From contig WFMF01000179.1 of the NCBI GenBank assembly GCA_011033025.1, positions 1 through 64,000 of the forward strand: DNA of 64,000 bases. Reading direction: 5' to 3'. Shown one piece after another: positions 1,985 through 49,873 of this stretch (position 1 is the first letter of the stretch; each line of letters opens with the position of its first letter). Both the position numbers and the translations under genes were made by a program. The stretch is from Beroe forskalii (Eukaryota > Ctenophora > Nuda > Beroida > Beroidae). The notes under the pieces were generated by a model that was not told where the DNA came from, made no database searches, and saw only the letters and a program-made list of their open reading frames with translations.

Positions 1985-4900
1985 GCTCTTTCTACTTTTC
2001 TAACAGTTTTGATTATGCTAATTGATATTTGCTTGTGAGATGTGACTCTGTGGGCCCGGCTATATCTACTCCATTTTATTATATGCTTGCTGCAGGAGAC
2101 TCTGTGTGCCCGGCTCTATCTACTCCATTTGATTATGCTTGCTGTAGTTGACTCTGTGGGCCTGGCTCTATCTACTCCATTTGATTATGCTTGCTGCAGT
2201 TGACTCTGTGGGCCCGGCTCTGTCTACTCCATTTAATTATGCTTGCTGTAGGAGACTCTGTGGGCCCGGCTCTATCTACTCCATTTAATTATGCTTGCTG
2301 CAGGTGACTCTGTGTGCCCGGCTCTATCTACTCCATTTGATTATGCTTGCTGTAGTTGACTCTGTGTGCCCGGCTCTATCTACTCCATTTGATTATGCTT
2401 GCTGTAGTTGACTCTGTGGGCCTGGCTCTATCTACTCCATTTGATTATGCTTGCTGCAGTTGACTCTGTGGGCCCGGCTCTATCTACTCCATTTAATTAT
2501 GCTTGCTGCAGGAGACTCTGTGGGCCCGGCTCTATCTACTCCATTTAATTATGCTTGCTGCAGGAGACTCTGTGGGCCCGGCTCTATCTACTCCATTTAA
2601 TTATGCTTGCTGCAGGAGACTCTGTGGGCCCGGCTCTATCTAGTATCTACTCCATTTAATTATGCTTGCTGCAGGAGACTCTGTGGGCCCGGCTCTATCT
2701 ACTCCATTTAATTATGCTTGCTGCAGGAGACTCTGTGGGCCCGGCTCTCTATCTACTCCATTTGATTATGCTTGCTGCAGGAGACTCTGTGGGCCCGGCT
2801 CTATCTACTCCATTTGATTATGCTTGCTGCAGGAGACTCTGTGGGCCCGGCTCTATCTACTCCATTTGATTATGCTTGCTGCAGGAGACTCTGTGGGCCC
2901 GGCTCTGTCTGCCCCATTTGATTATGCTTGCTGCAGGGAGACTCATTTGATTATGGGCTGCCGGCTCTATCTGTACCCCATTGATTATGCTTGCTGCAGG
3001 AGACTCTGTTGGCCCCGGCTCTATCTACTCCATTTGATTATGCTTGCTGCAGGAATCTCTGTGGGCCCGGCTCTATCTATATCTACCCCATTTGATTATG
3101 CTTGCTGCAGGTGACTCTGTGGGCCCGGCTCTATCTACTCCATTTGATTATGCTTGCTGCAGGTGACTCTGTGTGCCCGGCTCTGTCTAGTCCATTTAAT
3201 TATGCTTGCTGCTTGTGACTCTGTGGGCCCGGCTCTATTTACTCCATTTGATTATGCTTGCTGCAGGTGACTCTGTGGGCCTGGCTCTATCTACCCCATT
3301 TGATTATGCTTGCTGCAGGGGAGGAATCTGTGGGCCCGGCTCTATCTACCCCATTTGATTATGCTTGCTGCAGGTGACTCTGTGGGCCCGGCTCTATCTA
3401 CTCCATTTGATTATGCTTGCTGCAGGAGACTCTGTGGGCCCGGCTCTATCTACCCCATTTGATTATGCTTGCTGCAGGAGACTCTGTGGGCCCGGCTCTA
3501 TCTACTCCATTTGATTATGCTTGCTTGCTGCAAGTGACTCTGTGGGCCCGGCTCTATCTACTCCATTTGATTATGCTTGCTGCAGGAGACTCTGTGGGCC
3601 CGGCTCTATCTACTCCATTTGATTATGCTTGCTGCAGGTGACTCTGTGAGCCCGGCTCTATTTACTCCATTTGATTATGCTTGCTGCAGGTGACTCTGTG
3701 TGCCCGACTCTATGTACCCCATTTGATTATGCTTGTGCTGCAGGATAATCTGTGTGCCCGGCTCTGTCTAGTCCATTTAATTATGCTTGCTGCAGGTGAC
3801 TCTGTGTGCCCGGGCTCTATCATTACTCCATTTGATTATGCTTGCTGCAGAAGTGACTCTGTGGGCCCGGCTCTATCTACTCCATTTGATTATGCTTGCT
3901 GCAGGTGACTCTGTGTGCCCGGCTCTATCTACTCCATTTGATTTTGCTTGTTGCAGGTGGCTCTGTGTGCCCGGCTCTATCTACTCCATTTGATTATCTA
4001 GACTCTGTGGGCCCGGCTCCATCTACCCCATTTGATTATGCTTGCTGCAGGGACTCTGTGTGCCCGGCTCTATGGCCCTTGACTCTATCTGCCTCATTTG
4101 ATTATGCTTGCCGCGGGAGACTCCGTGTGCCCGGCTCTATCTACTCCATTTGATTATGCTTGCTGCAGGAGACTCTGGTGTGCCCGGCTCTATCTACCCC
4201 ATTTGATTATGCTTGCTGCAGGAGACTCTGTGTGCCCGACTCTATCTAGACCCCATTTGATTATGCTTGCTGTAGGAGACTTTGTGTGCCCGGCTCTATC
4301 TACTCCATTTGATTATGCTTGCTGCATGTGACTCTGTGGACCCGGCTCTATCTACTCCATTTGATTATGCTTGCTGCAGGAAACTCTGTGTGCCCGGCTC
4401 TATCTACTCCATTTGATTTTGCTTGCTTGCAGGTGGCTCTGTGGGCCCGGCTCTATCTATCTACAATTTGATTATGCTTGCTGCAGGTGACTCTGTGTGC
4501 CCGGCTCTATCTACTCCATTTGATTATGCTTGCCGCGGGAGCTCTGTGTGCCCGGCTCTATCTAATCCATTTCATTATGCTTGCTGCAGGTGACTCTGTG
4601 GGCCCGGCTCTATCTACTCCATTTGATTATACTTGTTGCGGGAGACTCTATTGTGCCCGGCTCTATCTACTCCATTTGATAGTGCTTGCTGCGGTGACTC
4701 TGTGGCCCGGCTCTATCTACCCCATTTGATTATGCTTGCTGCAGGTGACTCTGTGGGCCGGCTCTATTTACTCCATTTGATTATGCTTGCTGCAGGTGAC
4801 TCTGTGTGCCCGGCTCTATCTACTCCATTTGATTATGCTTGCTGCAGGAGACTCTGTGCTGCCCGGCTCTATCTACCCCATTTGATTATGCTTGCTGCAG

Positions 4901-7900
4901 GTGACTCTGTGTGCCCGACTCTATATACCCCATTTGATTATGTGCTTAATGCTTGCTGCAGGAGACTCTGTGTGCCCGGCTCTGTCTACTCCATTTGATA
5001 ATGCTTGCTGCAGGTGACTCTGTGGGCCCAGCTCTATTTACTCCATTTGATTATGCTTGCTGCAAGTGACTCTGTGGGCCCGGCTCTATCTACTCCATTT
5101 GATTATGCTTGCTGCAGGACTCTGTGTGCCCGGCTCTGTCTACTCCATTTGATTTTGCTTGTTGCAGGTGGCTCTGTGTGCCCGGCTCTATCTACTCCAT
5201 TTGATTATGCTTGCTGCAGGTGACTCTGTGTGCCCGGCTCTATCTACTCCATTTGATTATGCTTGCTGCAGGTGACTCAGTGTGCCCGACTCTATCTACT
5301 CCATTTGATTATGCTTGCTGCAGGAAACTCTGGGCCCGGCTCTGTCTACTCCATTTGATTATGCTTGCTGCAGGAGAATCTGTGGGCCCGGCTCTGTCTA
5401 CTCCATTTGATTATGCTTGCTGCAGGAGACTCTGTGTGCCCGGCTCTATCTACTCCATTTGATTATGCTTGCTGCAGGTGACTCTGTGGGCCCGGCTCTA
5501 TCTACCCCATTTGATTATGCTTGCTGCAGGTGACTCTGTGTGCCCGGCTCTATCTAATCCATTTCATTATGCTTGCTGCAGGTGACTCTGGCCTGTGGGC
5601 CCGGCTCTATCACGCCCCATTTGATTATACTCCATTTGATTGCAGGCTGACTCTGTGGGCCCGGCTCTATCTACTCCATTTGATTATGCTTGCTGCAGGT
5701 GACTCTGTGGGCCCGGCTCTATCTACCCCATTTGATTATGCTTGCTGCAGGTGACTCTGTGGGCCCGGCTCTATTTACTCCATTTGATTATGCTTGCTGC
5801 AGGTGACTCTGTGACTCTGTGTGCCCGGCTCTATCTACTCCATTTGATTATGCTTGCTGCCAGGGTGACTCTGTGGGCCCGGCTCTATCTACCCCATTTG
5901 ATTATGCTTGCTGCAGGTGACTCTGTGTGCCCGACTCTATGAACCCCATTTGATTATGCTTAATGCTGCAGGAGAATCTGTGTGCCCGGCTCTATCTAGT
6001 ATCTACCCAATTTGATTATGCTTGCTGCAGGACTCTGTGTGCCCGGCTCTATCTACTCCATTTGATTATGCTTGCCGCAGGAGTCTCTGTGTGCCCGGCT
6101 CTATCTAATCCATTTCATTATGCTTGCTGCAGGTGACTCTGGGCCCGGCTCTATCTACTCCTGTGGGCCCGGCTCTATCTACTCCATTTGATTATGCTTG
6201 CTGCAGGTGACTCTGTGGGCCCGGCTCTATCTGCCCCATTTGATTATGCTTGCTGCAGGGGACTCTGTTGCCGGCTCTATCTACCCCATTTGATTATGCT
6301 TGCTGCAGGTGACTCTGTGGGCCCGGCTCTATCTACTCCATTTGATTATGCTTGCTGCAGGTGACTCTGTGTGCCCGGCTCTATCTACTCCATTTGATTA
6401 TGCTTGCTGCAGGAGAATCTGTGCACCCGGCTCTATCTACCCCATTTGATTATGCTTGCTGCAGGTGACTCTGTGTGCCCGACTCTATGAACCCCATTTG
6501 ATTATGCTTAATGCTGCAGGAGAATCTGTGTGCCCGGCTCTATCTACTCCATTTGATTATGCTTGCTGCAGGAGACTCTGTGTGCCCGGCTCTATCTACT
6601 CCATTTGATTATGCTTGCTGCAGGAGACTCTGTGTGCCCGGCTCTATCTAATCCATTTCGATTATGCTTGCTGCAGGTGACTCTGTGGGCCCGGCTCTAT
6701 CTACTCCATTTGATTATACTTGTTGCGGGAGACTCTGTGTGCCCGGCTCTATCTACTCCATTTGATGAGTGCTTGCTGCAGGTGACTCTGTGTGCCCGGC
6801 TCTATCGGCCCCATTTGATTATCTGCCCCATTTGATTATGCTTGCTGCTTGGTGACTCTGTGGGCCCGGCTCTATTTATACTCCCATTTGATTATGCTTG
6901 CTGCAGGTGACTCTGTGTGCCCGGCTCTATCTACTCCATTTGATTATGCTTGCTGCAGGAGACTCTGTGCGCCCGGCTCTATCTACCCCATTTGATTATG
7001 CTTGCTGCAGGTGACTCTGTGTGCCCGACTCTATGAACCCCATTTGATTATGCTTGTCTGCGGGAGGCTCTGTGTGCCCGGCTCTATCTAGTCCATTTAA
7101 TTATGCTTGCTGCAGGAGACTCTGTGTGCCCGGCTCTATCTAATCCATTTGATTATGCTTGCTGCGAAGTGACTCTGTGGGCCCGGCTCTATCTACTCCA
7201 TTTGATTATGCTTACTCCATTTGATTATGCTTGCTTGCTGCAGGACTCTGTGTGCCCGGCTCTATCTACTCCATTTGATTTTGCTTGTTGCAGGTGACTC
7301 TGTGTGCCCGGCTCTCTATCAGTCGTATCTACCCCATTTGATTATGCTTTGCTGCAGGACTGATTCTGTGTGCCCGGCTCTATCTACCTCATTTGATTAT
7401 GCTTGCTGCAGGAGACTCCGTGTGCCCGGCTTTATCTACTCCATTTGATTATGCTTGCTGCAGGAGACTCCGTGTGCCCGGCTTTATCTACCCCATTTGA
7501 TTATGCTTGTTGCAGGAGACTCTGTGTGCCCGGCTCTATCTACTCCATGTGATTATGCTTGCTGCAGGAGACTCTGTGGGCCCGGCTCTATCTACCCCAT
7601 TTGATTATGCTTGCTGCAGGTGACTCTGTGTGCCCGACTCTATGAACCCCATTTAATTATGCTTGCAGTTGCTGCAGGTGACTCTGTGTGCCCGGCTCTG
7701 TCTAGTCCATTTAATTATGCTTGCTGCTTGTGACTCTTCGGACCCAGCTCTATTTACTCCATTTGATTATGCTTGCTGCAGGACTCTGTGTGCCCGGCTC
7801 TGTCTATTTGATTTTCTACTCCATTTGATTTTGCTTGTTGCAGGTGGCTCTGTGTGCCCGGCTCTATCTAGTATCTACCCCATTTGATTATGCTTGCTGC

Positions 7901-8297
7901 AGGACTCTGTGTGCCCGGCTCTATCTACTCCATTTGATTATGCTTGCTGCAGGAGACTCTGTGTGCCCGGCTCTATCTAATCCATTTGATTATGCTTGCT
8001 GCAGGTGACTCTGGCCTGTGGGCCCGGCTCTATCTACTCCATTTGATTATACTTGTTGCAGGAGACTCTGTGTGCCCGGCTCTATCTACTCCATTTGATA
8101 GTGCTTGCTGCAGGTGACTCTGGCCTGTGGGCCCGGCTCTATCTGCCCCATTTGATAATGCTTGCTGCTTGTGACTCTTTGGGCCCGGCTCTATCTACTC
8201 CATTTGATTTAGCTAATTGCTTGTGAATCTGTGAGCACCGGCTCCTTGTACCCCGTTTGATTATGCTTGCTGCTCGTGAGCACCGGCTCTTTTTACT
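1985..8297 (+). repeat. 52 bp satellite array, roughly 115-120 copies
   Basis: The unit reads GACTCTGTGGGCCCGGCTCT then ATCTACTCCATTTGATTATG then CTTGCTGCAGGT: 52 bp, with PstI-like CTGCAG and GGGCCC/GTGCCC variants. Edge units (near 1985-2040 and 8160-8297) are diverged and the middle is most homogeneous, the usual pattern of unequal exchange. Variant positions (GGG/GTG, CTCC/CCCC, GGTGAC/GGAGAC) are shuffled among neighbours, and some units are partial or fused. Because 52 is not a multiple of 3, a reading frame cycles through all three frames, so the chains of open frames here are by-products and not proteins. Confidence 0.93.
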
Positions 8298-13038: not shown

Positions 13039-16000
13039 ATTTGCAGATTGGAACATAACATACACTAGGTATTTAGATTTAGCCCACTATAAAATGATCA
13101 TTGTTAGATGATCTTCCTTACAGGCCACCCTATGGAATAACTTTCTAGATGTAGAGTGCTAAGGGGCAGCCACACTAGCATTATTTCACTTAAGTGTCGC
13201 ATGTTTGTAGCTTACACGCAATAACAAATTGATAGCTGACTTATAGGCAATCTTCATGAACTCTATTTCATAATTGGAAATGTTCTACTGGGTGGCTTGC
13301 AATTCATAGTGTTTGATGTTCTGGGTTTCTGTTGTTCATGAAACATTTCTTAAATGGAAAATGTTCATATTAAATATTTCTTAAATGTTGTAAAATATTT
13401 CATATATGTTCATGGAAGTAAACATGTACACTAAACTAAATTCTAGTTACATAACATCCACCCTGACCTTGATTCACCTCTAATACAAAATATGAACCTA
13501 ACTGGACTCTGAAAATTTTCTATTTCATATTTTGAACGGATGATGTGTTGATGTACACAAGTTAGCAATACCTGCCCCTAATGCATGTGAATTTGGCATT
13601 CACTATTTTCAGATTAAACATATCATAATGTTGTTTTTTATATCGGGGGCATCACATATTTGATATGCTGAAATTGAGATTGGGAGACGGACATTTCATC
13701 ATAAACATTCTATCACGACATTTCATCTCACTGACATTTCATTCTGACACTTCTCTCAATTACAAAAACTTTCATCACTATGGTGTGTGCTATAAAGTAC
13801 GACATTCTCAAGTGCAGTTTCGTCTCAAAGACTTTGGCACTCATCTCACCACAACTTGATTTTCTGTAAAATGTCTGGCTGACCTCAGTACAGGCATTTC
13901 ATATCAGGCTACAACACTTCATGTCTCGTTATGGCTTTTTACTCTTATCAGGGGAAAAACACTTGATATCAAGAATTGGGTCACTTTATCTCAGACTGCG
14001 ACATTTCATCTGGTACTTCATCTCAAAAGTATGACCTTCTATCTCTGAGTTAACAAAATATGAACTGCTTCAACATCTCAGATTTTGTTTCATCTCTGAT
14101 TTTGACTTAAATCTCAGACTAGATGTTTTATCTCTGGATTTGACACTTCACATCGTGAACTTTAATTTCCTTTGTGTTGGAAAATATTATTAACTACTAG
14201 ACACCATTTATTAACATATATTCGCCATGTTTAGGGAAAATATTCGCTATTGGGCGCTTGTTCATTCTTAAAAAATTTCTTCATGTTTAAGGAAATAATT
14301 CTTCTTATGATATAAATTTCTTTTTGGAATAAATTTTCTGTATTGGTAAAATATTTAATAATATTATGAATTGCAATATATTGCCTCTCTAAGTTGCACA
14401 TGGCCCCACCTCTGCATGATTCGCATCTGTTGCAAAATGTGGTTTTCTAGCTTGACTCCACAATTCTATTTCATATTTTAGAACAGATGATCAATATTAA
14501 TATTACAAATTGCATAGCAATCCAAGAGCTACTGTGTATTATGTAATTTAAAGCATCAATTATACTTTTCGGATTTAACAAAATATCATATATATTTTTG
14601 GTTCAGACTCATATAGAAGGCCGATTTCATGATCTAGAACATCACATAGTACGACGGGCTAAGTTTGAGTCGTCGAGTCAGTCGTCGAGTCAGTCGTTCG
14701 TCGAGTCGAGTCTCGTCGAATCGTCGAGTCGTCAGTCATCTGAGTCGGCGGTCGTCGGTCAGTGATCGAGTCGAGTCGTCGAGTCGAGTCGTCGAGTCGA
14801 GTCGTCGAGTCGGAGGTCGTCAGATCGAAGTCGTCGTCGAGGTCAGTCGATTCGTCAGGTCGAGTCATCGAATCGTCGGTCATCAGTCAGTATCCGAGTA
14901 GGTCAGTATCAAAGTAGGCCGACTCGACTCAACTCGACGAGTCGTTGACTTTTGTCTTGGCTCTCGATCGTCGACGACATCGACGACACGACGGCGGACA
15001 CGACACGACACAACGACTCGCTCGACTCGGCTCGACTCGACGACTCGACGACTCGACTCGACGACTCGACTCGACGACTCGACTCGACGACTCGACTCGA
15101 CGACTCGACTCGACGACTCGACTCGACGACTCGACTCGGCTCGACTCGACTCGACGACTCGACTCGACGACTCGACTCGACGACTCGACTCGACGACTCG
15201 ACTCGACGACTCGACTCGACGACTCGACTCGACGACTCGACTCGACGACTCGACTCGACGACTCGACTCGACGACTCGACTCGACGACTCGACTCGACGA
15301 CTCGACTCGACGACTCGACTCGACGACTCGACTCGACGACTCGGCTCGACGACTCGACTCGACGACTCGACGACTCGACTCGACTCGACTCGACTCGACT
15401 CGACTCGACTCGACTCGACTCGACGACTCGACGACTCGACTCGACGACTCGACTCGACGACTCGACGACTCGACGACTCGACTCGACGACTCGACTCGAC
15501 GACTCGACTCGACTCGACGACTCGACGACTCGACTCGACTCGACGACTCGACGACTCGACTCGACGACTCGACTCGACGACTCGACGACTCGACGACTCG
15601 ACTCGACGACTCGACTCGACTCGACTCGACGACTCGACTCGACGACTCGACGACTCGACGACTCGACTCGACGGCTCGACTCGACGACTCGACTCGACGA
15701 CTCGACTCGACGACTCGACTCGACGACTCGACTCGACGACTCGACTCGACGACTCGACTCGACGACTCGACGACTCGACTCGACTCGACGACTCGACGAC
15801 TCGACTCGACGACTCGACTCGACGACTCGACTCGACGACTCGACTCGACGACTCGACTCGACGACTCGACTCGACGACTCGACTCGACTCGACTCGACTC
15901 GACGACTCGACTCGACGACTCGACTCGACGACTCGACTCGACGACTCGACGACTCGACGACTCGACGACTCGACTCGACGACTCGACTCGACGACTCGAC

Positions 16001-17903
16001 TCGACGACTCTCGACTCGACGACTCGACGACTCGACGACTCGACGACTCGACGACTCGACTCGACGACTCGACGACTCGACTCGACGACTCGACTCGACG
16101 ACTCGACTCGACGACTCGACGACTCGACTCGACGACTAAACTTCGCTCCGTCGTACTATGTGATGCTCCTATGATCATATGAAAACGGGCTCTCTGTTAG
16201 GCTATAACGAACCAAAATGACATAACATGACATTTTGTTAAATCCGAAAAGTATAATTGATGCTTAAATTTACATAATACACAGTAGCTCTGGATTGCTA
16301 AGTGCAACTTCCTGTACATTAATACATCATCTGTTCAAAATATGAAATAGAATTTCAGGAGTCAAGTTAGAACACATTTTGTACAGATGCGAATCAAGGT
16401 GAGGGTGGGGTTGAATGTTGATGTGTGTAACTTAGAGTGTACATATTGTAATCATAACATACGACAATATTTTATCTAACACGGCGAAATTTATTCCAAA
16501 AAGAAATTTGATACCCAGCAAGCGAATATTTTCCAAACATGGCGAAAATTTCTTTAAGAATGAATGTGTTGCCCAATAGGCGAATATTTTCCTAACACGG
16601 CGAAATATTCTGTATTAATAAATGTGTTACCCAGTAGGCGAATATTTTCCTAACACAGCGAATTAAAGTCTACGATGAAGTGTCGTATCCAGAGATAAAA
16701 TATCGTAGTCTGAGATTTTAAGTTTCGTAACCAGAGATGAAGTGTCGTACCCTGAGATGAAGTGTCGCAGTCTGAGATATTTTGTTTACCCTGAGATGAA
16801 GTGTCATACTTTGAGATGAAGTGTCGTACCCTGAGATGAAATGTCGCAGTCTGAGATAAAGTGACCTACCCTGATATCAAGTGTTTTTCCCTGATAAGAG
16901 GTGCCATACCCAGAGATGAAGTGTCGTAGCCTTGGATATGAAATGTCGTACTTTCGAGGTCAAATGATACACTTTACAGAAAATCAAGTTGCAGTAAGAG
17001 ATGGAGTGCCGTACCCTTGAGACGAAACTTCGCACTCTGGAGATCAAAGTCGTACTTTATAGCACAATCAAATTACAGTAGGAGATGAAGTTTCGTACTT
17101 TGAGATGAAGTGTCAGGGACGAAATGTCGCGAGATGAAATGTCGTGATATAACGTGTCGCGAGATGAAATGTCCGTTCCCCAATCTCACTCTGTCGTAAG
17201 TTATGTGATGCCCTCATGATATAAAAACGGGCCATTATGATATGTTTAATCTGAAAAATATGAATGCTTAAATTTACATACACAGTAGGTAAGTAGGTAG
17301 GTATGTATTGCTAAGTGCAACTTTGTGTACATCAACACATCATCTGTTCAAAATACGAAATAGAAAATTTTCAGGAGTCAAGTTAGAACACATTTTGTAC
17401 AGATGTGAATCAAGGTCAGGGTGGGGCTGCTATGTGTAACTTAATTAGTTTAAAGTGTACATGTTATCATAACATACGGCGAATATTTTATTAACACGGC
17501 GAAATATTTTCTAAGGCGAATATTTTCCGAACACGGCGAAATATTCTCTAAGAATAAATATGAAACCCAGTAGGCGAATACTTTCCAAACACGGCGAATT
17601 ATTCTCTAAGAATGAATGTGTTACCCAGTAGGCGAATATTTTCCTAACATGGCGAAATAGAGTCTACGAAGATTGTTTATAAAACAGGCGAATAATTGCT
17701 TAGCATTGCGTGTGTTTACAAACATGCGACCACTTTGGCGAATATAATGCTAGTGTGGCGAATATTACCCTGCACTTTACACGCATTCTTAGAAAGTTAA
17801 CGCATAGGGTGTGGCCTGTGGCGAATATCATTTTAACAATGCGATCATTTTTATAGTGTGGCGAATTCAATACCTAGTGTGGCGTTGTTCTAATCTGGCA
17901 GGG
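13039..17903. mobile_element. Giant foldback element: about 1.6 kb inverted arms around a minisatellite loop
   Basis: The left arm (13039-14655) and right arm (16148-17903) are inverted copies. Matching blocks are: TTGCAGATTGGAAC at the left end with GTTCTAATCTGGCA at the right; CACTAGGTATT near 13065 with its complement near 17870; CATCACATAGTACGACGG (14638) with CCGTCGTACTATGTGATG (16149), directly next to the loop. Each arm holds two copies of a subunit (TATTTCATATTTTGAACAGA type; left at about 13500 and 14465, right at about 16330 and 17340). Each also has runs of GAGATGAAGTGTCGTACC-like repeats and of GGCGAATATTTTCC repeats. The right arm keeps many CG-containing boxes that the left arm has lost. 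No transposase frame is seen. Long inverted repeats with internal direct repeats around a unique loop are the hallmark of foldback (FB/Galileo-type) transposons; the superfamily here is unknown. Confidence 0.82.
14655..16137. repeat. CTCGA / CTCGACGA minisatellite in the foldback loop
   Basis: From about 14925 to 16137 the sequence alternates CTCGA (5 bp) and CTCGACGA (8 bp) blocks, often as the 13-mer CTCGACTCGACGA. From 14660 to about 14915 the complementary sense (GAGTCGTCGAGTC) prevails and is more degraded, so the array itself changes orientation. All six frames are largely open, giving Ser/Arg or Asp/Thr/Arg/Leu-rich translations. These are a consequence of the repeat and not evidence of a protein. 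CpG density is extremely high compared with the AT-rich flanks. Confidence 0.92.
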
Positions 17904-18105
17904 GGGCTTAGCATGACTGCCACTTGTCTGGTTGCTCAACATGACCTAGGTGCATTTGTGATCGCTGTATAGAACCATCACAATTTAATCATGGCAGCTA
18001 CAAGTCCTAAGCAAACATTAATCATTGAAACAGAAGAACATGTCAGGGACTTTATCCTTCAAGTTTAGGTTTGGGGGCCTACCTTAAAGGTCTCCAATTT
18101 AACCG

Positions 18106-19528: not shown

Positions 19529-20369
19529 TCTTACTATATATAATGCGTGTTGTTAATGTATATATATATATATATTTATTTATATGTGGCGATTCATTTT
19601 CAAGTTAGCATCGAAATTATCTTTTAATTGTGTTGTAAGAAAGTTATAATAAATCAGAAAAATAAAGAATTTTTTTTGCGGTCACCCTGAGGGGAGTGGG
19701 GGACCACGCCCTTTTTTTCGCAAAAATTAAACTTTCGATTTTTTTCAAAATTCCTTCGCCATCGAGTTGCTCATGATGAATAAAAATTTTGAGAATTTTG
19801 TCCGCAATATTGGGTCACCCTGAGGGTAGTGGGGGGCCACGCCCTTTTTTTCGCAAAAATTAAACTTTCGAATTTTTTCAAAATTCCTTCGCCATTGAGT
19901 TGCTTATGATGAATAAAAATTTTGAGAATTTTGTCCGAATTATTGGGCCACTCTGAGGAGCGTGGGAGGCCACGCCCTTTTTTTCGCAAAAATTAAACTT
20001 TCGAATTTTTCCAAAATTCCTTCGCCATCAAGTTGCTTATGATGAATAAACGTTTTGAGAATTTTGTCGGAATTATTGGGTCACCCTAAGGGGCGTGGGA
20101 GGCCACGTCCTTTTTTCGCAAAAAATAGATTTTCGAATTTTTTCAAAATTCCGGTTCGCTATGGAGTTGCTTATGATGAGTAAAGGTTTTGAGAATATTG
20201 TCGGCAATATTGGGTTACCGTTGGGGGCGTGGGAAACTTTTTTTCGCAGAAATTAAAGTTTCGAATTTCCCCTTCAAACTCGCACGGTCAAATCACTGTC
20301 AAAGGGACATGTGGCTGTTAGCTCATGCGGCTGCCATCATTCGCCGTCCGTAGGACGGGAACCGACTAG
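19529..20369 (+). mobile_element. Helitron-like non-autonomous element, family 1, copy 1
   Basis: The 5' end TCTTACTATATATAATGCG directly follows A, and the 3' end CTAG directly precedes T, with a short hairpin (CCGTCCGTAGGACGGG) just upstream. These are the diagnostic Helitron termini (A|TC...CTAG|T). The interior is a tandem of about 120 bp units (TTCGCCATNGAGTTGCTTAT; CACGCCCTTTTTTTCGCAAA), about four times. Two further copies in reverse orientation are at 47658-48337 and 49178-49873. No Rep/helicase is present. Confidence 0.72.
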
Positions 20370-25596: not shown

Positions 25597-28500
25597 CTTG
25601 ATCCCGACATCGTTGTTGTGTTTCACGACGAGGTCCCTCGTGTCACTGCTTCTGCCGCGTCTTGTGGTGGGGGCGGCGTCCATCACGATGCTGGAGGCAA
25701 CCTCCACATTATCGTCACACCCCGTCATGTGCCACGAACTTTCTGAGAAACAAATACATTTGTATACATTTGTATAAAATTTTATACATTTTTATACATT
25801 TTTATACATTTGTATACATTTGCATACATTTGTATACATATGTATACATTTGTAAATATTTGTATACATTTGTATACATTTGTATACATTTGTAAACATT
25901 TGTAAACATTTGTATACATTTGTATACATTTGTATACATTTGTATACATTTGTATAAAATTTTATACATTTTTATACATTTTTATACATTTTTATACATT
26001 TGTATACATTTGCATACATTTGTATACATATGTATACATTTGTAAATATTTGTATACATTTGTATACATTTGTAAACATTTGTCAACATTTGTATACATT
26101 TGTATACATTTGTATACATTTGTATACATTTGTATACATTTGTATACATTTGTATACATTTGTATACATTTGTATACATTTGTATACATTTGTATACATT
26201 TGTATACATTTGTATACATTTGTATACATTTGTATACATTTGTATACATTTGTATACATTTGTATACATTTGTATACATTTGTATACATTTGTATACATT
26301 TGTATACATTTGTATACATTTGTATACATTTGTATACATTTGTATACATTTGTATACATTTGTATACATTTGTATACATTTTTATACATTTGTATACATT
26401 TGTATACATTTGTATACCTTTGTATACCTTTTTATACATTAAACATACATTTTAAACAAGAATTGCGCTCGTTTTCTCTATCCCTCCTCAAAGCCTTTTT
26501 GTAAAAATTTCAATGTAGAACATAGAATGCAGTTAAATGTGACTAAAATTTCAGATCGTAATTTTCACTTTTAAGAATAAGATTCATCATTGAATGAAAA
26601 CTCCAAGAGTATAAAGTGTGAATGAGAGCAAGATGGTAATCCCATTCCCCAGTAACTCACTGTTAGTAAAATGGAAGGAATCTGATGTGTTGGATGCATC
26701 TACGTTGAAGCTTTCTGCCACATTGTCGTTACAGAAGCACTCGGGGAACTGCCCTTCGCCACAGGCGTTTGTGAGCATATAAGTGATACCAGCGGAGAGA
26801 ATGGCGTAGGAAAATGCTGACTCCCGAAAACCTGGTTTTTGGGAGAAGAAAAGTTTATTTGACATCATTATCCATAAATCAATTCATAATGCCACTGTTA
26901 GATAAAGGCGAGATATTGAGAGAATGTGAGATGTACATTGTACATGGCTTTGAAAGACGAGGGAAAAAGTGCAAAACTATAAGATTTGTTCACCTCTCTC
27001 TAGCAGCTTTATGAAGGGGTTATTGTCGACGGAAGTGCAGTTCCACCGGTTTTTACTGAACTGCGTCTGGCACTCCAGCTGAGCCTGAGATATTCAACAT
27101 TTAGTTTTACTGGAATCCAACTCAGTTTGTCGTCTTCGGCGCTCCATTCTCACACCACTCCACTCTGACAACAGTAAACTCTGACTCAACTCCACTCTGA
27201 CTTTAATTGACAATGATGCACTCTGACACCACTTCACTCTTAAACCAGTGGACTGACACCTGGGGCGTAGCCAGGGGGAAGGCGACACAGGCGGCTGCCT
27301 CCCCTTTTTGGACAGGCAATATGAAAATTTTGTTTATTCTGATAAAATGATGGCTTTGTGCCAAGCAAAATAAAACATTAAAAAGGTTTTCAATGTAACT
27401 CGCCAGTTGCCGCCCCCTTTTCTTAAATCTGGCAACGCCCCTGACTGACACCAGTGCAGTTTGACACCAGCGGCTTCTGGCACTAGTGAACTCTGACACC
27501 ATAAAGCCATTACACTCTGACACCATTGTACTCTGAAACTATGGTATACTCCGACAACAGCACACCCTAACTCAAGAGCACTATGATATCGGCACAGTGG
27601 GGTTTACTCTGAAGCTATAGTATGCTCTGACACCAGTGCACTCTGACACCAGTGCACTCTGACACCAGTACACTCTGACACCAGTACACTCTGACATTGA
27701 CACCAGTACACTCTGACACCAGTACACTCTGACACCAGTAGACTCTGACACCAGTAGACTCTGACACCAGTACACTCTGACACCAGTACACTCTGGCACC
27801 AGTACACTCTGACATCGGTACCCTCTGACACCAGCATACTCTGACACCATTACACTCTGACACCAGTACACTCTGACACCAGTACAAGTTCTGAAACCAG
27901 TACACTCTGACACCAGTACACTCTGAAACCAGTTCACTATGACACCAGTACATTCTGACATCAGCACACTCTGACACCAGTAGACTCTGACACCATTACA
28001 CTCTGACACCAGTAGACTCTGACACCAGTACACTCTGACACCAGCACACTCTGACACCAGCACACTCTGACACCAGTACACTCTGACACCAGTACCTTCT
28101 GACACCGGTACCCTCTGACACCAGTTCACTCTGACACCAGTACACTCTGAAACCAGTACACTATGACACCAGTAAACTCTGACACCAGCACACTCTGACA
28201 CCAGTACACTCTGACATCGGTACCCTCTGACACCAGCATACTCTGACACCATTACACTCTGACACCAGTACACTCTGACACCAGTACAAGTTCTGAAACC
28301 AGTACACTCTGAAACCAGTACACTCTGAAACCAGTTCACTATGACACCAGTACATTCTGACATCAGCACACTCTGACACCAGTAGACTCTGACACCATTA
28401 CACTCTGACACCAGTAGACTCTGACACCAGTACACTCTGACACCAGCACACTCTGACGCCAGCACACTCTGACACCAGTACACTCTGACACCAGTACATT

Positions 28501-30787
28501 CTGACACCAGTACACTGTGACACCAGAACATTCTGACACCAGTACACGCTGACACTTGACACCAGTACACTCTGACACCAGTACACTCTGACACCAGTAC
28601 ACTCTGACACCAGTACATTCTGACACCAGTACACTGTGACACCAGAACATTCTGACACCAGTACACGCTGACACTTGACACCAGTACACTCTGACACCAG
28701 TACACTCTGACACCAGCACACTCTGACACCAGTACACTCTGACACCAGTACACTCTGACACCGGTACACTCTGACACCAGCACATTCTGACACAAGTACA
28801 CTCTGACACCAGTACACTCTGACACCAGTACACTCTGACAGTGACACCAACACACTCTGACATCAGACACTAACTGACTCCCAAGTACGAGTTTTACCTG
28901 CAGAATGCCTTGCTGGACGTAGTGCATGAGGTTGGGGTAGCGTTTGCAGAGGTAGATGTGGTGATGTGGCAGACCAGGAAGGTTATTACACGAGAACTGG
29001 GAGCTGGAGAAGTTGGTGCTGCCAACCGCCCTGCGGAAATACAAGGGTTAGAAATATAGGTAGAGGAGAATGGGGTGAACAGGGATAAGAGAGGGTTACA
29101 AGGGTTCCAGGATAATTAAATAGTGAGGGATTTTAAAGTTTTAAAGAGTCCCAGTAGTTGGGTTTTGCAGAGAGTAGAAGTGGTGGTAAATGGTCGAAAG
29201 CAGCAGTCCCAGTGGAATTCCTTAAACGACAGTATATCTCCCTTCCTTGGCTATTTATAGTTCCAATCACATTTCTGGAAACGAGCTAAGGTTTGAAATG
29301 GGGCAAGAGGTCACCTTGGCTCACACCCTCCTTATAATCCGATTTGAACCTGACATTTTAATTCGGAATCTCATTACTACGTTTCGTCATCAATTACGCC
29401 AACTACTTTTGATAAAGAGTGGCAAATATTTGAATCAAAACTCCACCACTAGTTCTGGTGGCACTTCAAATCAATTAAATTCCGTTTCATTCCAGAGCAC
29501 TTACAAGAATACAAGTAAACTGAGCAACGTATCAGAGCGAATAGGCTGATTTCTGGACAGAGGTGAATGCTACCGTACGTTAATAAAAAATGGTTTTTGA
29601 AAACTTTTATCGAACTTCCAGAAAATTATCAACTGTTTTTTCCACGATTGGAGCAACAAGTTATGGCCTCTAGCCAGTATCAATATTCAATATGCAAGAA
29701 AACTGAGATAGTACAATTCTGACACCAACTATAGAACACATGCTCATAACTTGAACGCTTGCTCAGGAAAACTTAATCGTGAAGAGCAGCAAAACAAACA
29801 GAAAACAAAGCATCAGTAATGTTTGATATTTGTTGGAGAGGAGAAAAGCAAAGAGTAGAAAGCATGGATGTCGCGTTACAATTGAACTAACCCTCACCCC
29901 TACCTTACACCAACTCCATATTATCATTTAACATATCAACACGTGTCTGTAACACCTGCAAACCTCTTTAAATCTTTTTAATACCATGAGCTAAGCCAAA
30001 CCGTACCATTCCATGCATCTATTACAGTAAAACAACATCTGACTGTACTACCTCTCGGTTGTTACAAATCAATCGACTAGTTGCAAATCAAAGAACAAGT
30101 CATATTTCAAAGATGTGCCAGTGTTTTCGTTTGCGTCAAGTAACAAGCTGCGATTGTTCCCGAGACTGCAAGTAAGACGCAAATAACCTGGTATCTCCTG
30201 GTAACCTGGTATTACCTGGTGACCTGGTAGCATGGTAACCTAATAGCATGGTAACCTAGTAACTCCTGCTGCCATGTTATTTCTTGGTAGCCTGGTAGCT
30301 ATCAATATTGTGGTATCCTGTAGCAGTGTAGCATGGTTACCTGGCATCTCCTGGAAACCTGGTAGAATGGTTACTTGGTATTTCCTGATAACCTGGTAGC
30401 CCTGGTATTTCGTGATGGCCTGATATCTCCTGGTAATAGCATGGTAACCTTGTATCCTGGTAGCATGGTTACCTGGTATATCCTACTGCCATGCTAACTG
30501 CAAATAACTCGGTATCTCGGAGTACAAAGCGTTAAGTTCTTATAGTGAATCAATTTCATTTTCAACTGTTACAGATTCTAAATCATTTCAAACAGTCAAC
30601 TAAATGAAAGTTGTTGATAGTTGTGCTACTTAAACACAAGGGAATCTTTTCAAACAATCTGCTAATTAGAAAGTTGCAGATAGTTGGATACTCACACGAG
30701 GAACGCACCGTCGATGCTGGTAAATATCGATGCGGTTAAGATATGACTGATGAGAGAGAAAAGCATTAGGAATAAGCTCGGAGACAT
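25597..30787 (-). CDS. Wnt family secreted ligand, 5' five exons (C-terminal exons not found)
   Basis: Exons in transcript order: 30787-30696, 29030-28898, 27084-26994, 26831-26661, 25742-25597. All splice in phase with GT-AG sites and give 211 residues. Exon 1 is a signal peptide (MSPSLFLMLFSLISHILTAS). Exon 2 has CNNLPGL and LCKRYPNLMHYVQQGI; exon 3 ECQTQFSKNRWNC; exon 4 FRESAFSYAILSAGITYMLT then a Cys-rich turn; exon 5 GCDDNVEVASS and DTRDLVVKHNND. These follow the Wnt fold block by block. The usual WxWGGC is altered to WHMTGC. The palmitoylated-serine block (CHGVSGSC type) and the C-terminal cysteine domain are missing: I find no candidate down to 20 kb, where a RICTOR fragment on the other strand intervenes. 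The subfamily is uncertain; exon 4 resembles Wnt8/WntD most. Introns 2 and 4 contain minisatellites. Confidence 0.85.
25751..26450. repeat. 10 bp minisatellite (TGTATACATT)n in a Wnt intron
   Basis: About 70 units of TGTATACATT, which contains the palindrome TGTATACA. The central part (26090-26380) is nearly perfect and the left part has TTTATACATT and TGTAAACATT variants in a higher-order arrangement. It lies inside intron 4 of the Wnt gene (25743-26660). Tyr/Ile/Phe-rich open frames here are artefacts of the repeat. Confidence 0.95.
27120..28870. repeat. 16 bp minisatellite (ACACTCTGACACCAGT)n in a Wnt intron
   Basis: Dense from about 27540 to 28868 and looser from 27120 to 27540. The unit is ACACTCTGACACCAGT. 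A higher-order duplication is visible: about 27780-27990 and 28190-28400 share the same variant order (ATCGGTACCC, CAAGTTCTGAAACC). The array fills intron 2 of the Wnt gene (27085-28897). A 487-codon open frame across it starts in real exon 2 but reads repeat and is not a protein. Confidence 0.94.
27262..27441. mobile_element. Short inverted-end element inserted in the 16 bp minisatellite
   Basis: GGGGCGTAGCCAGGG at the left and CTGGCAACGCCCC at the right are imperfect inverted ends. The insert (about 180 bp) interrupts the CTGACACC repeat, with GACTGACACC on both sides. It is non-coding and MITE-like. Confidence 0.6.
30185..30500 (+). repeat. Imperfect CCTGGTA-type tandem repeat
   Basis: CCTGGTAACCTGGTA, TCCTGGTAGCATGGTTA and similar 7-15 bp units are irregularly repeated. 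It lies in intron 1 of the Wnt gene. Confidence 0.7.
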
Positions 30788-35609: not shown

Positions 35610-38600
35610 TCATTGCACTGCTTTAGCTCTGGCGTTGAGTTGTTTCGCATCATTGGCAAGAGAAACAATAGTGAAGAGGTGCATGAAAAGAAGGATGGAA
35701 GTGGGCAAGAACTGTTGGAAGAACTTGAGGGTGAGCAGCTGGTAGAACAATATGGACACCAGTAAACCTGAAACATGGGTATTAAGTAGTTTCTAGCTCG
35801 CGGATAATGCGCCGGAAGAACTGGTTAAAACTTTAAAAGGCCGGAATAAAGACCAATAAAGCATGAATCCTAAATTGAAATGAAGTACCTTCGACCAGGG
35901 CCAGTATCTTGAGGACTCTGAAGGACTCATTAAAGAGGAGGTGGAGGAGGGTGTGGGGGTAGAAGCAGGGGTGGGCAGCCACTGAGGGACTAACTGCAAG
36001 GTAGGTCCTGTCTTCGAACTTCACAATGCTCCCTTCCCCCCATTCCACCGCTTCTTTCCACCTGGAGATGGGTTTTAGTGTTATGATAATTCGATCGGGT
36101 TCTCAGTTAACTCTCTGCGGTTTTCATCAGTGTCTATGATGCATAAAGTAATGATCCCTGCCTGATCGGATCCATATTGGCGAAGACCCTAGCCCTCCAA
36201 GCTGCCATAGCACGTTCATTGTTCAACTCCAAGTCACTATATGACAAACATTGTGGGATTGTGGGAATCAGCTATCGCGTGATTGTGTCACGCTGCTATA
36301 ACAAACCCAATGTTTCACTGTTTAAGTTAACTCACTCGGGGACGGAGTCCGTTTGATCGTCCGAGAGGACAGCAGACTGCCAGCGTCCCAACATGTTAGC
36401 AGCGCTAGTCAGCTTCACCATGTAGTCCATGGGTAGCACCTGGACAGAGAAAATCAGGTGACACTCAGAGCAGTTCTCTTCTCCCAGGCTTTTCACTTCA
36501 CGAAATCAGTAACTTGATGACGTCGTTATTAGCATGTGGTAAGCCAAATTTCATGTGCACATAGAACTACGAAAGTCTAAAGTTACAGTAAAGCTCGAGT
36601 TCGAACCTGCAAAACAAGTAGAACTGATATGTGAAGCAGAGCTGTCAGCTGCTGAGCCTTGATACAGTTCATCTGCTTTACGACAGTATTACTCTGAAAA
36701 TGAGAGAAAATTTAAATGGGGATTATACACTGAGCATGAGCTTACTGTAAGGTAAGTATCAACTTATCAAGGATTTAAGACTTTTACTGAAGTACTAGCT
36801 TAGTGCTCACTAGTGATAAGTAATGGTTAAGGGATATGGTTATTCAGAAAGCAAGTGTACCTGCTGGAGTGACGTTGCCATGTAACACGCCATGTATACG
36901 CAGCAAACTATCTGAATACCAAGGTACTGCAATCTTGATTTGAGGTTGCATATCAAGCACTCGACGTACTTTCTTATTTCGTCGGGGCTAGCGGTTTTAT
37001 TTGGACCAACCGAGATGCTATTGGAGGGCTTTGAAGAGAATATCAATAGCACAGCTATCCTGCAAATATTAGATATGTTGAGGGCAGAATTAGGACTCGA
37101 ACAGGGCCCTGGCAACAACGGTACCCTATTTACTACGGTACCTTATTAACAACGGTACCTTACTAACGACGGTACCTAACTAACAACGGTACCTTATTAA
37201 CAAGGATACCTTATTAACAACGGTACCCTATTAACCACGGTACCCTATTAACCACGATACCTTATTAACGACGGTACCTTACTAACGACGGTACCTTATT
37301 AACGACGGTACCTTATTAACGACAATGGTACCTTATTAACGACGGTACCTTACTCACGACGGTACCTACCGTCGTTAGTAAGTTCCTTACTAACGACGGT
37401 ACCTTATTAACGACGGTACCTCATTAACAACGGTACCTTATTAACAACGGTACCTTATTAACAACGGTACCTTACTAACGACGGTACCTTACTTACGACG
37501 GTAACTTATTAACAACGGTACTTTTCTCACGACGGTACCGTTCTAACGACGATACCTTACTAACGACGTTACCTTACTAACGACGGTACCTTACTTACGA
37601 CGGTACCTTATTAACAACGGTACCTTATTAACGACGGTGCCTTTCTCACGACGGTACCGTACTAACGACGTTAGTTAGGTTGGTTGTAAGGTCCTTACTA
37701 ACGACGGTACCTTATGAACAACGGCACCTTATCAGCAACTGCACCTTATTAACAGCGGTACCTTATCAACAAATGTATCTAATTAACAACGGTACCCAAT
37801 TAACGACGGTACCTTACTAACGGCAGTACCTTATTAACAACGGTACCTCAATAACAGCGGTACCTGATTAACCACGGTACCTTATTAACAACGGTACCTT
37901 ATTAACGACGGTACCTTATTAACGACGGTACCTTATTTACAACGGTACCTTACTTACGACGGTACCTTATTAACAACGGTACCTTATTTCAGCACATTAG
38001 CAGACAACTTGAACAATAAACATTAAAACACGAATCGAAATAATGGCGAGACCAGCAGTGCATGTCTTTATATATGACGGTTGACACCACTCAGCATCCA
38101 ATCAAGCATGACGAATAACACTACGTACACACACCGACTCTATGACGTTGACACCACTTGACATGACGAACGTTACGTACACATACCAATTCTATGACGT
38201 TGACACCACTTAGCATCAAATCGAACATGACGAACAACGGCGTTTGCACATTCCAGACACCACTTATCTTACTATGAAGGTGCTCTACCTTCAAATATGC
38301 ATGCAGTTCGTTGAATTGTCAATTGCATGCATGGAATGTAACGTACGTAATTATCGTAACGTTCGTTCATTGCATGCATTGCTGCGCGTGCCGCGCCGCG
38401 CGACGCGTTAACGCGTTAATGCGCGAAAACTGCATGCGCGCGTTAACGCGCGCATGCAGTTTTCGCGCATTGCGGATCAGTAAAGAGCCGCAGCGCCTTA
38501 CAAATATGTGAGATTCAAAAGGTCCCCATTTTTGTCGCCCTTCTTTCACGGAAAATACTCAATTTCTGCTTCCTTTTCTTACTTTTCAAAAAGACGATCA

Positions 38601-45000: not shown

Positions 45001-47590
45001 GAGCAGCTCTACCTTGGCGAAGTATTTCAATCATACACGAAATGGAAGGGTTAGCTGAAGTAAAAGGAGCAGCAATTGACGCCTCTGCCTCAGATAATGA
45101 CACTCCAGCATGTGCTGACCTGAGAGCCCCGCAGTCATTGGCTCCATCACCACACATTGACACTGTCAGCCCAATTTGTTGGAGGTCCTCAACTAACTTC
45201 TGTTTAGTAATGGGCTTCATGCGAGCAAATATTTTACCTTTAAGGAGAAGCAGTTCATATATCAATGGATGGTCAGAAGCTATTTGGTCAAATGTTGAAC
45301 CACCAATTGCAAAAACATATGGACCATTAGTTAGTTTTTCAATTGCATCATTTATACTTTCCTCATCATAGTTATCATTTAAAACAATTGCATTTTCATC
45401 CTGAAAATCAAGCTGAAAAGAAACTGAATTGTCAACTACTTTTATAACAAGAACATTATGTTTCATAGGAACTATTCCACACTTCCGGGCAACAGTGGTA
45501 GCAGTTAAAATATTATCTCCCGTAACCATACAGACTCTAGTGTTAGCATTCAAAATATCACCAATGCATTGAGTTGTATCATTTTTCAAGTGATTTTCCA
45601 TGACAAGAAATCCTATAAAATGAAGATTGCACTCAATTTCAGATCTTCTTGTGCTTTGGATGTTATGCCAGCTTGTATCAGAGTCTATTGATTTCCAACC
45701 AAATGCAATTACTCTATACCCATCTTGTGTAAAGGAGTTCAATTTGGAATCAAAATCAACAGGAATACTTTCTTCAACAGAAAGTGATTTAATCATCTCT
45801 GGTGATCCTTTGCAAAAAATGATAAACTCATCATCTTCAAGGCTCTTTGTGATAACAGACATTCTTTGATACTCTGATGTAAATGGGAATATCTTGATGA
45901 TTCCTATCTCTGAAAATTCAATTTGTTGAACATCAGGTGCATCTGAGTCATTGGATTGTGGAGTAACAATGGCACTCAAGAATTGTGTGAGAGAGCTGGT
46001 ATGGTCACATTCTTCAATAGCCCATTTAGTAAATTTGAACATTTCAATATCTAAGGGATCTCCAATAAATTCCCCATTAATAACTGATATCTCATGACAT
46101 GTTGCAAGAGCTTCAACAAGCTTCTTATTACTAATATCACTACACTTGTGTTCAGTTTGTTGGAAAGTAATCTTGGATGGTATAGCGCATAAAACAGTAA
46201 GGCCATCCTCAGTAAGTGTTCCAGTTTTATCAAAACAAATGTTCTGTACTTTACCACAGAAATTTACCCTCTGAGGATCAATGCAAAAAATTTTGGCTTT
46301 TTTCATTCGCTGAACTGCATAAACAACGCCAATTGTCAATGCTGCTGGTAAAGCTGGTGGTACAACTACAGTAATCAAGTCAAGTCCAAGGCGCAATGTC
46401 TTCCAAAATGTTCCACCAAGTTTCATGGAAATATAAAAAGTGTAACCAAAGCCAATGGCAGCAAAAAATGATAACATAACTATAAATCTAGTGGCATCTG
46501 TTTGAAATTCAAACTTTGTAGGCTTTGGACACAAAATAGATCGAATTAAGGAGCCTTTAAATGTATTGAATCCAGTTCTGGTAACAATTGCAACTGCATG
46601 AGCACCAGATGAGGGTTTGGCTTGAAGTATGGTAGTACCTGAAAAAAGAGAATATTTTTTATCTCTTTCAGCATCATATATCAGATCTTCTGCCACATCA
46701 AATCTTTCCACTTCACCAGAATCAAACACAAATTTAGAAATATAAGGAACTGAAGACTTGTTTACAGGTACACTTTCTCCAGTTAAAGCACATTCATTCA
46801 CAATGGCAGAACCAGAAACTAAAACAGCATCACAGCACAATAGCATGCCATCTCTTGGAATAAATATTACATCACCAGGAAGTAATTCTGAGGACTGTAT
46901 GGTAATTTCTCTGCAATTCCTTTGTGTTAAAACTTCAATAGAGGATGATGCCATGGCATTGATCTTTTTCTTTTGCTTGCGCTGCTCAAAAATGGTGATT
47001 CCAATGGAGACAATTGATATGACCAAAATAGCAGATGCATACATCTCATAACTATCACACATCCAGAGAATAACAGCAAATGCTTGAAAAATATAAAATG
47101 GTTGTATTACTTCAATGCAGAATAGCTTCAGATAAGATGGGACAGGAACATCAATAGTATTATTCCCAAATCTTTGAAAATATTCTTCAGCAACAGCTTC
47201 ATCCAAACCACTACTCAATGCATGTATATCGGAATAATGAAGATTTTCTAGACCATTAATTAGAACAAATTGCCCATTATCATAAACATATTTTAAATAC
47301 TGATACTTGAAACACTTTTTACCATTGATAGTCTTGACAGACACCAAACCCTCAGTACCTGCCAAACATGATTTGATATGGACATAATTGGCACTAGAAA
47401 GTTTGGTCTTCTTCTTGGTGAACAAGGCATTAGCTGATGGAAACCAGAATAATAACAGAAGAAATAGTCCCCCTGTTATGAAAGTCAATAGAATGGTCAA
47501 CAATATTTTTGGTAAAGAAGCAGAAAGCCCAGTGATAACATATTCTGTAAAGCAATCATCATTTATGATCTGAGAATTCTTGTAGTTCAT
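42060..47590 (-). CDS. P5B-type ATPase (ATP13A2/ATP13A3 family), complete
   Basis: P5B ATPases are late-endosomal/lysosomal transporters; ATP13A2 exports polyamines. Exons: 47590-44732, 44583-44417, 42788-42653, 42427-42299, 42131-42060 (TGA). All join in phase to 1120 residues, close to the family's roughly 1150-1250. Exon 1 alone codes 953 residues. Visible are an N-terminal hydrophobic region (about 29-50), actuator TGES (270-273), the P5B signature PPALP (411-415), phosphorylated Asp454 in DKTGTLT, KGSPE (594-598), MVTGD (698-702) and GDGAND (814-819). The small exons add the last membrane segments (YENTALF; WTLMIVFVICILMALLFVFQ; ALNFVTAYLLECFF). I chose Met at 47590 because upstream codons run into a Helitron-like repeat at 47658; an upstream exon is possible. 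Intron 2 holds another Helitron-like element. Confidence 0.93.
42865..44343 (+). mobile_element. Helitron-like non-autonomous element, family 2, copy 1
   Basis: The 5' end TCTTATATATAATTTGGAG follows A, and the 3' end is a hairpin (GCAGGCCCAACGGGCCTGC) whose last C starts CTAG before T. Inside, a block of about 500 bp (CACGTGAATTATGTCTGTGC; TTTGAGCTTGCCAAGAAAAT; ATGATCAGTTCTATGCGAGT) is tandemly duplicated at about 42888-43080 onward and 43572-43765 onward. It lies in an intron of the P5B ATPase. A reverse copy is at 52482-53603. Confidence 0.72.
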
Positions 47591-47657: not shown

Positions 47658-48337
47658 TTTGTCGGTTCGCCCCACGGATCGCACGATGGCAGCCGCATGA
47701 GCTAACGGCCACGTGTCCCTTTTGACAGTGATTTGACTGAGCGAGTTTGGAGGGGAAATTAAACTTTAATTTCTGCGAAAAAGCTTCCCACGCCCTTAAC
47801 GTTAACCCAATATTGCCGACAATATTCCCAAAACCTTTACTCATCATCAAAAACTCCATAGCGAAGGAATTTTGAAAAATTGAAAAATCTATTTTTTTCG
47901 AAAAAGTGGCGGGCCTCCCACGCCCCTAAGGGTGGCCCAATAAGACTCCGACAAAATTCTCAAACTTTTTATTCATCATAAGCAACTTTATGGCGAAGGA
48001 ATTTTGAAAAATTCGAAAGTTTAATTTTTACGAAAAAAGGGCGTGGCCTCCCACGCCTCAGAGTGACCCAATAATTGACAAATTCTCAAAATTTTTATTC
48101 ATCATAAGCAACTGATGGCGAAAGAATTTTGGAAAATCTGAAACTTTAATTTTTGCGAAAAAGGGCGTGGCCCACCACGCCCCTTGTGGGTGGCCGAAAA
48201 ATCTCATACTATTTTTCTGATTTATTATAAAGTTTTTGCAACACGATGAAAAAAGAATTTTGTTGCCTTCTTGAAAACGAATCGCCATAAATAAATAAAT
48301 ATATATATATTAACAACACGCATTATATATAGTAAGA
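47658..48337 (-). mobile_element. Helitron-like element, family 1, copy 2
   Basis: Reverse-orientation copy of 19529-20369. The 5' end (TCTTACTATATATAATGCG on the minus strand) is intact next to A; the 3' end is degenerate (CCGACAAAT where CCGACTAGT is expected). It ends 68 bp from the chosen start codon of the P5B ATPase. Confidence 0.7.
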
Positions 48338-49177: not shown

Positions 49178-49873
49178 CTTGTCGGTTCCGTCCTACGGAC
49201 GGCGAATGATGATGGCAGCATGATGGCTAACGGCCCGTGTCCCTTTTGACAGTGATTTGACCGAAAGAGTTTGAGGGAAATTCGAAACTTTAATTTCTGG
49301 AAAAAAAGCTTCCCCTAATGCCCCCAACGTTAACCCAATATTGCCGACAATATTCTCAAAACCTTTACTCATCATCAAAAACTCCATAGCGAAGGAATTT
49401 TGAAAAATTCGAAAATCTATTTTTTTCTCGAAAAAGGCGTGGCCTCCCACGCCCCTAAGGGTGGCCCAATAATTCGGACAAAATTCTCAAAACTTTTATT
49501 CATCATAAGCAACTTTATGGCGAAGGAAATTTGAAAAAATTCGAAAGTTTAATTTTTAATGAAAAAAAAGGGCGTGGCCTCCCACGCCCTCAGAGTGACC
49601 CAATAATTCGGACAAAATTCTCAAAATTTTTATTCATCATAAGCAACTCGATGGCGAAGAATTTTGGAAAATTTAGAAACTTTAATTTTTGCGGAAAAGG
49701 GCGTGGCCCACCACGCCCCTCAGGGTGGCCGAAAAAATCTCATACTATTTTCCTGATTTATTATAAAGTTTTTGCAACACGATGAAAAAAGAATTTTGTT
49801 GCTATCTTGAAAACGAATCGCCATAAATAAATAAATATATATATATTAACAACACGCATTATATATAGTAAGA
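49178..49873 (-). mobile_element. Helitron-like element, family 1, copy 3
   Basis: Reverse-orientation copy with the same interior units. The 3' end reads CCGTCCGTAGGACGGAACCG then ACAAG|T, and the 5' end TCTTACTATATATAATGCG follows A. The GTCCGTAGGAC hairpin is intact. Confidence 0.7.

Follow-up and report, generated by a model that had tools for sequence, protein, structure and literature searches.

A palindrome in the genome of Beroe forskalii probably combines an old and a recent half-element of one non-coding foldback transposon family

A palindrome at 13044-17908 in the stretch of DNA analysed here (the window, 64,000 nucleotides of contig WFMF01000179.1 from the ctenophore Beroe forskalii) very probably unites an old and a recent member of a single foldback family, joined inside their repeat loops. 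Searching the host assembly (216 Mb in 1,134 contigs) shows that this family, read here as non-coding foldback DNA transposons, behaves as an element: its termini are 5'-AG...CT-3', its copies have terminal inverted repeats of about 670 bp in common, and insertion duplicates 6 bp of the target.

The inverted arms of the palindrome, seen in the earlier note, do exist: 13044-14660 on the left and 16141-17908 on the right match at 73% over 1,806 columns, and the joined arms score 1506 bits against their own inverted orientation, with 41 bits being the best of 100 shuffles. Nested repeats are present as that note described them, with two subunits per arm and units of about 20 bp; when checked, the right-arm subunits share 77.7% identity over 461 columns. 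A 20-bp GATGAAGTGTCGTACC array occupies 16674-16951 and a satellite with a 13-bp period 15014-16120. Counting also bears out that CG boxes are lost in the left arm alone, with 18 GGCGAA boxes (either strand) on the right and 1 on the left, together with 69 and 19 CpG sites, respectively, and the satellite does change orientation, between 14885 and 14931. The right border was refined to 17908 (GGGGGGCT), after which TAGCAT follows at 17909-17914, while on the left homology starts with CAGATT at 13044; the outermost family motif, AGCCCCCTGC, was not found at this left border.

Frames neighbouring the palindrome match RICTOR_N, a P5-ATPase and the RING-type domain PF17976, the last of which we take to be a mark of parkin. 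The window also holds other arrays: one of 6.2 kb at 2042-8273 (52-bp unit, higher-order period 156), a repeat of about 133 bp, apparently of one kind, in short arrays at 19680-20234, 47786-48184 and 49334-49730, and minisatellites at 25754-26440 (10 bp), 27625-28840 (16 bp) and 37114-37988 (17 bp). By eye, the ~133-bp repeat contains a GGGCGTGGGAGGCCACGCCC-like palindrome and occurs in both orientations.

That the arms belong to a dispersed family with conserved ends, as the earlier note had suspected, is borne out by 68 family ends. These are the genome sites that match the 27-bp end AGCCCCCTGCCAGATTAGAACAACGCC at up to 3 mismatches (62 perfectly, 5 with one mismatch), and a reversed-pattern control gave 0 sites genome-wide. 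The window's own end has two mismatches because of an extra C. Used as genome queries, the left arm gave at least 54 matches (40 of 186 candidates scored) and the right arm at least 48 (40 of 507 scored). Elements take the form 5'-AGCCCCCTGCCAGATTAG...CT-3'. As in the foldback structural class, the family has long inverted repeats that contain tandem repeats, and its dispersed copies combine conserved ends and target duplications with a variable middle.

Copies that we call type A are normally asymmetric: the long arm measures 1.76 kb and the short arm 0.67 kb, and a CTCGA satellite and a spacer of about 0.5 kb lie between them. Both arms are present in 14 of 20 loci mapped and one arm only in 6, and all 14 pair one arm of up to ~1.76 kb with another of ~0.67 kb, some of the long arms being interrupted or incomplete. 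The spacer adjoins the short arm and measures ~0.5 kb where uninterrupted; insertions lengthen it in L012, L018 and others. The satellite adjoins the long arm and is present in 15 of 17 type-A loci examined (the other four of the 21, L010, L014, L023 and L027, show a single arm and were not counted; the parts of them that were read hold no CpG-dense loop). Main arrays range from 625 to 4325 bp, a set that includes L022, whose satellite is cut by the contig start. The two loci of the 17 without CTCGA satellite are L013 and L025, the latter having a different tandem array inward of its arm. Satellite orientation tracks the long arm in 15/15 satellite-bearing loci, L017 also carrying 20 counter-oriented units. 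Subfamily B (L036-L038, L073-L075) has the same ends and a terminal repeat that is 77-85% identical; its middle is higher in G+C and has inverted repeats and no CTCGA satellite. The CTCGA satellite would be a tolerated, length-variable passenger. Satellites that may or may not lie in elements were seen on contigs C2, C122, C132, C176 and C177 as well.

Going by outer-arm identity among type-A elements, the family looks young: across the 14 elements compared, the median identity of each to other arms is 0.966-0.988. Since identity between arms within elements (0.970-1.000) is not above the best identity between elements (0.987-1.000), arm-to-arm gene conversion lacks support.

Variable loop length and target duplications, which the earlier note had named as marks of a transposon, were both found among family copies elsewhere, the former in the arrays above. 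Among 53 readable ends of the 68, there are 15 adjacent facing pairs, each pair lying on one contig, and 14 of these are flanked by exact 6-bp duplications (TTAATA, TAGATA, TATTTA, AATGTA, CATACA, TTCAAA, TAAAAT, TATATA, TAAAAA, TAATTA, TTTTAT, TATAGG, ATAATG and TAAGAT), from which it follows that the element starts with AG and finishes with CT. These paired copies are 3.6-10.9 kb in size. Counting against the reading as a whole, the fifteenth pair (C189:48323/55556) has no matching duplication, and the outermost bases are missing at one or both ends in L011, L015, L016, L017, L018 and L026. In several copies of this set the shortened end starts at or near CAGATTAG, and in L016 the 6 bp beside it (TATAAA) still equal those on the other side, as if the shorter end were usable too. 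The left arm of the window likewise is without its outermost bases.

As for unpaired ends, 11 of 20 inward slices read are unlike the long arm, the type-A spacer and subfamily B. Terminal repeats were read in these 11 and in C236 and C451; the recognisable part stops after 107-636 bp in the 11 and after 46 bp in C451. Unmatched ends look truncated, interrupted or different inside, and one of them, C569:298806, pairs with 307717. The stretch C569:298806-336499 is a local cluster of at least 4 family copies in ~38 kb. At L071 (C451:147350-148650), where recognisable repeat extends for only those 46 bp, frames beside the family end resemble, by eye, exons of a MARK-type kinase, and this end is perhaps an old remnant inside an intron.

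Set against this plan, the parts of the window palindrome are read as follows.

13044 to 14660, + strand: left arm, the decayed long arm of the old copy (outer to inner); outermost 10 bp unrecognisable
14651 to 14885, - strand: degraded satellite of the old copy in TCGAG orientation, as in copies with a left-hand long arm (found with TRF)
14888 to 14940, + strand: satellite-proximal tail of the young copy's type-A spacer; aligns with L019 and L020, reading from spacer to satellite
14931 to 16140, + strand: the young copy's CTCGA/CTCGACGA satellite, oriented as in copies with a right-hand long arm
16141 to 17908, - strand: right arm, the intact long arm of the young copy; ends in GGGGGGCT, with one extra base in the C-run relative to the family end
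17909 to 17914, + strand: TAGCAT, expected site of the young copy's target duplication; no left partner

The earlier note took the palindrome for one foldback element, within whose loop the satellite reverses, a description that lacks support, given halves of different age, a spacer tail in the loop and no shared duplication. Against the majority of eight family long arms, the left arm reaches 72.7% identity (75.0% outside CpG sites) and the right arm, itself one of the eight, 99.0%; the best identity of the outer repeat to any of 34 arms is at most 68.5% for the left half and 99.4% for the right. Among the 54 genome matches listed for the left arm, none is full-length above 73%, short pieces reaching up to 85%. 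Between both satellites, whose extents by a sliding threshold are 14651-14885 (TCGAG) and 14931-16165 (CTCGA), the satellite-proximal end of a spacer begins at 14888 and reads toward the right-hand satellite. Each satellite is oriented as expected for the arm that it adjoins, and the TAGCAT at the right end has no matching 6 bp at the left end. The window copy is therefore most likely not a single foldback unit.

With spacer tail, right-hand satellite and right arm following one another as they do elsewhere, the right half reads as an otherwise normal young copy that was broken within the spacer and now lacks the short arm and most of that spacer. The left half reads as part of an older copy in opposite orientation, namely its long arm with some of its satellite, to judge from the sequence. 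Such a junction of two copies at ~14888 accounts for the two long arms, the satellite switch, the CG-box loss in one arm (the half that is old) and the missing target duplication. The join probably arose by deletion or by ectopic recombination between two nearby copies, the break falling in satellite or spacer sequence.

It could be argued that the palindrome is one foldback element in which both arms are long and the left one has mutated faster than the right, as its arms align over nearly full long-arm length and its loop is satellite. To our minds this is very improbable: one arm has diverged by 27% and the other by 1%, a difference that no ordinary process is known to produce, the loop includes the spacer tail at 14888 and two satellite orientations that each suit the adjoining arm, the right-hand TAGCAT is without a left partner, and 14/14 both-arm loci have one long and one short arm. 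Rather improbable, too, is an assembly artefact in which separate copies were falsely joined through their satellites. While a satellite of up to 4.3 kb, as in another copy, could mislead an assembler, the old satellite here is degraded and extends for only ~235 bp, and it is spacer sequence (14888-14940) that marks the break, outside the pure array. We thus favour the fusion of an old and a recent copy.

Stop-to-stop frames of at least 100 amino acids were listed in L009-L028, L036-L038 and L072-L075, and 8 frames from these loci were scanned against Pfam (L023:6861-8018 twice). None of the 8 has a transposase domain. Matches are to WWE, sulfotransferase, helicase and papain-type domains in frames that look like host genes; frame L018:1-528 lies almost wholly outside the element. 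As the copies read yielded no recognisable transposase, we only infer mobilisation in trans, by an enzyme that would make 6-bp staggered cuts and whose gene would lie outside these copies; by analogy, the GGCGAATATT and GAGATGAAGTGTCGTACC arrays may be putative binding sites for it. Genome-wide, Pfam placement gave at least 150 rve (150 of 200 candidates scored), at least 46 MULE, at least 23 hAT dimer and at least 7 DNA_pol_B_2 matches. Among the matches listed, none lies between two facing family ends (coordinates compared by eye). The closest approach, by an rve frame at C276:87192, leaves ~3.7 kb between the frame and an element; on the inward side of unpaired ends, no listed match comes closer than 69 kb (C292). 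An integrase search returned frames of ~360-390 amino acids, some sharing contigs with DNA_pol_B_2 matches, and we infer that these polymerase and integrase frames are Polinton-type; among those listed, none is near a family end.

Foldbacks whose arms contain repeats are already known. FB of Drosophila and TU of the sea urchin resemble the present family in foldback form and in tandem repeats within the arms; their target duplications measure 9 bp and 8 bp. An FB/Mutator-type foldback was set aside as its duplication of 9 bp differs from the 6 bp here. Tetris of Drosophila virilis, as described in PMC4079207, is similar in having long inverted repeats with internal tandem repeats and a variable middle, in showing no apparent coding capacity, in that no transposase-encoding partner was found for it, and in satellite growth within the element, which there feeds a satellite. 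Unlike in that account of Tetris, however, the satellite here occupies the loop next to one of the arms and keeps a fixed orientation, the arms are unequal, and the ends and repeats differ. Galileo of Drosophila, a P-superfamily element, shares long internally repeated arms, chimeric copies and target duplications exchanged at inversions, according to PMC2775673; it was rejected as a match since its duplications there are 7 bp (GTAGTAC) and those here 6 bp and AT-rich. Nor was a P transposase noticed here. IS3EU and GingerRoot do have 6-bp duplications but TA..TA or TG..CA termini in PMC10045372, and so were rejected for a family that ends in AG..CT. Several features of the present family are unusual: its arms differ in length, the satellite in its loop is tied to one of them, AG ends go with duplications of 6 bp, and in the window a very old half has probably been fused with a very young one. 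No earlier description of it was found in literature listings and abstract openings on foldbacks, Polintons, satellites, sponges and cnidarians.

With respect to what moves the family, a non-autonomous derivative of Polintons/Mavericks is conceivable, if on balance unlikely, and would be compatible with the fusion. Mavericks/Polintons have 6-bp duplications with AG...CT ends and inverted repeats of 46-1,447 bp in PMC8097293, the 6-bp duplications also appearing in PMC10045372. The 6-bp target duplications, 5'-AG...CT-3' ends and long terminal inverted repeats of the present family fit these descriptions, and the genome contains at least 7 Polinton-type polymerase matches. Yet no family end is near the 7 polymerase matches listed (on C364, the sole shared contig, they are 124 kb apart), blast with the arms (E up to 1) finds nothing in these 7 loci, and no Polymerase B or integrase lies inside an element among the matches listed. 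Nor was a Polinton gene recognised in the copies read, and the end motif is another one, the vertebrate motifs (AG)3 or (AGT)2 being absent. The 14 paired copies are also smaller than intact vertebrate Mavericks (12.7-24.6 kb in PMC8097293). AG ends and 6-bp duplications hint at a possible Polinton-type integrase. A fuller proposal is more doubtful still: resident Polintons would supply, in trans, the integrase that moves a non-coding foldback parasite whose arms are unequal and whose CpG-rich satellite is locked in orientation, and this parasite would cause inversions and fusions of half-elements in the genome of an animal.

The earlier note expected the palindrome to be a rearrangement hotspot, and this is partly upheld in that one pair of copies bears an inversion mark. 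For REARRANGEMENT elsewhere, the ends at 45988 and 83449 of contig C189, both on the + strand, carry TTGGAG/CTCCAA, which are complementary, 37,461 bp apart and in inverted orientation. Both flanks are parts of another repeat and, when joined with one TTGGAG, match an uninterrupted copy of it (L048) at 229/234 without gaps and a second copy (L018) at 203/227 with 10 gaps. As the joined flanks match an empty paralogue, one insertion apparently had its two sides separated and inverted. These matches point to a probable element-associated inversion on C189, although an assembly error may also produce the signature. In Drosophila, an inversion made by ectopic recombination is recognised by chimeric Galileo copies whose target duplications have been exchanged, with aberrant transposition discussed as an alternative origin (PMC2775673). 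The interrupted repeat, which has TGCACGAGCTTGCGAGTGCA motifs and was seen at L018:1580-3005, L048, L076 and L077, is the target of one foldback insertion and itself interrupts the spacer of another copy. Complementary duplications between contigs were set aside as rearrangement evidence, the 4 seen being close to the ~2 estimated by chance for AT-rich 6-mers.

The AG ends and 6-bp duplications of the family match none of the foldback families compared. The traces that it leaves are clean: target duplications without mismatches, an empty site in a paralogue, the signature of an inversion, and an old half fused with a young one. They make it a good natural case of foldback elements breaking and rejoining chromosomes outside flies, and the probable fusion in the window would be an example of such elements rearranging a genome.
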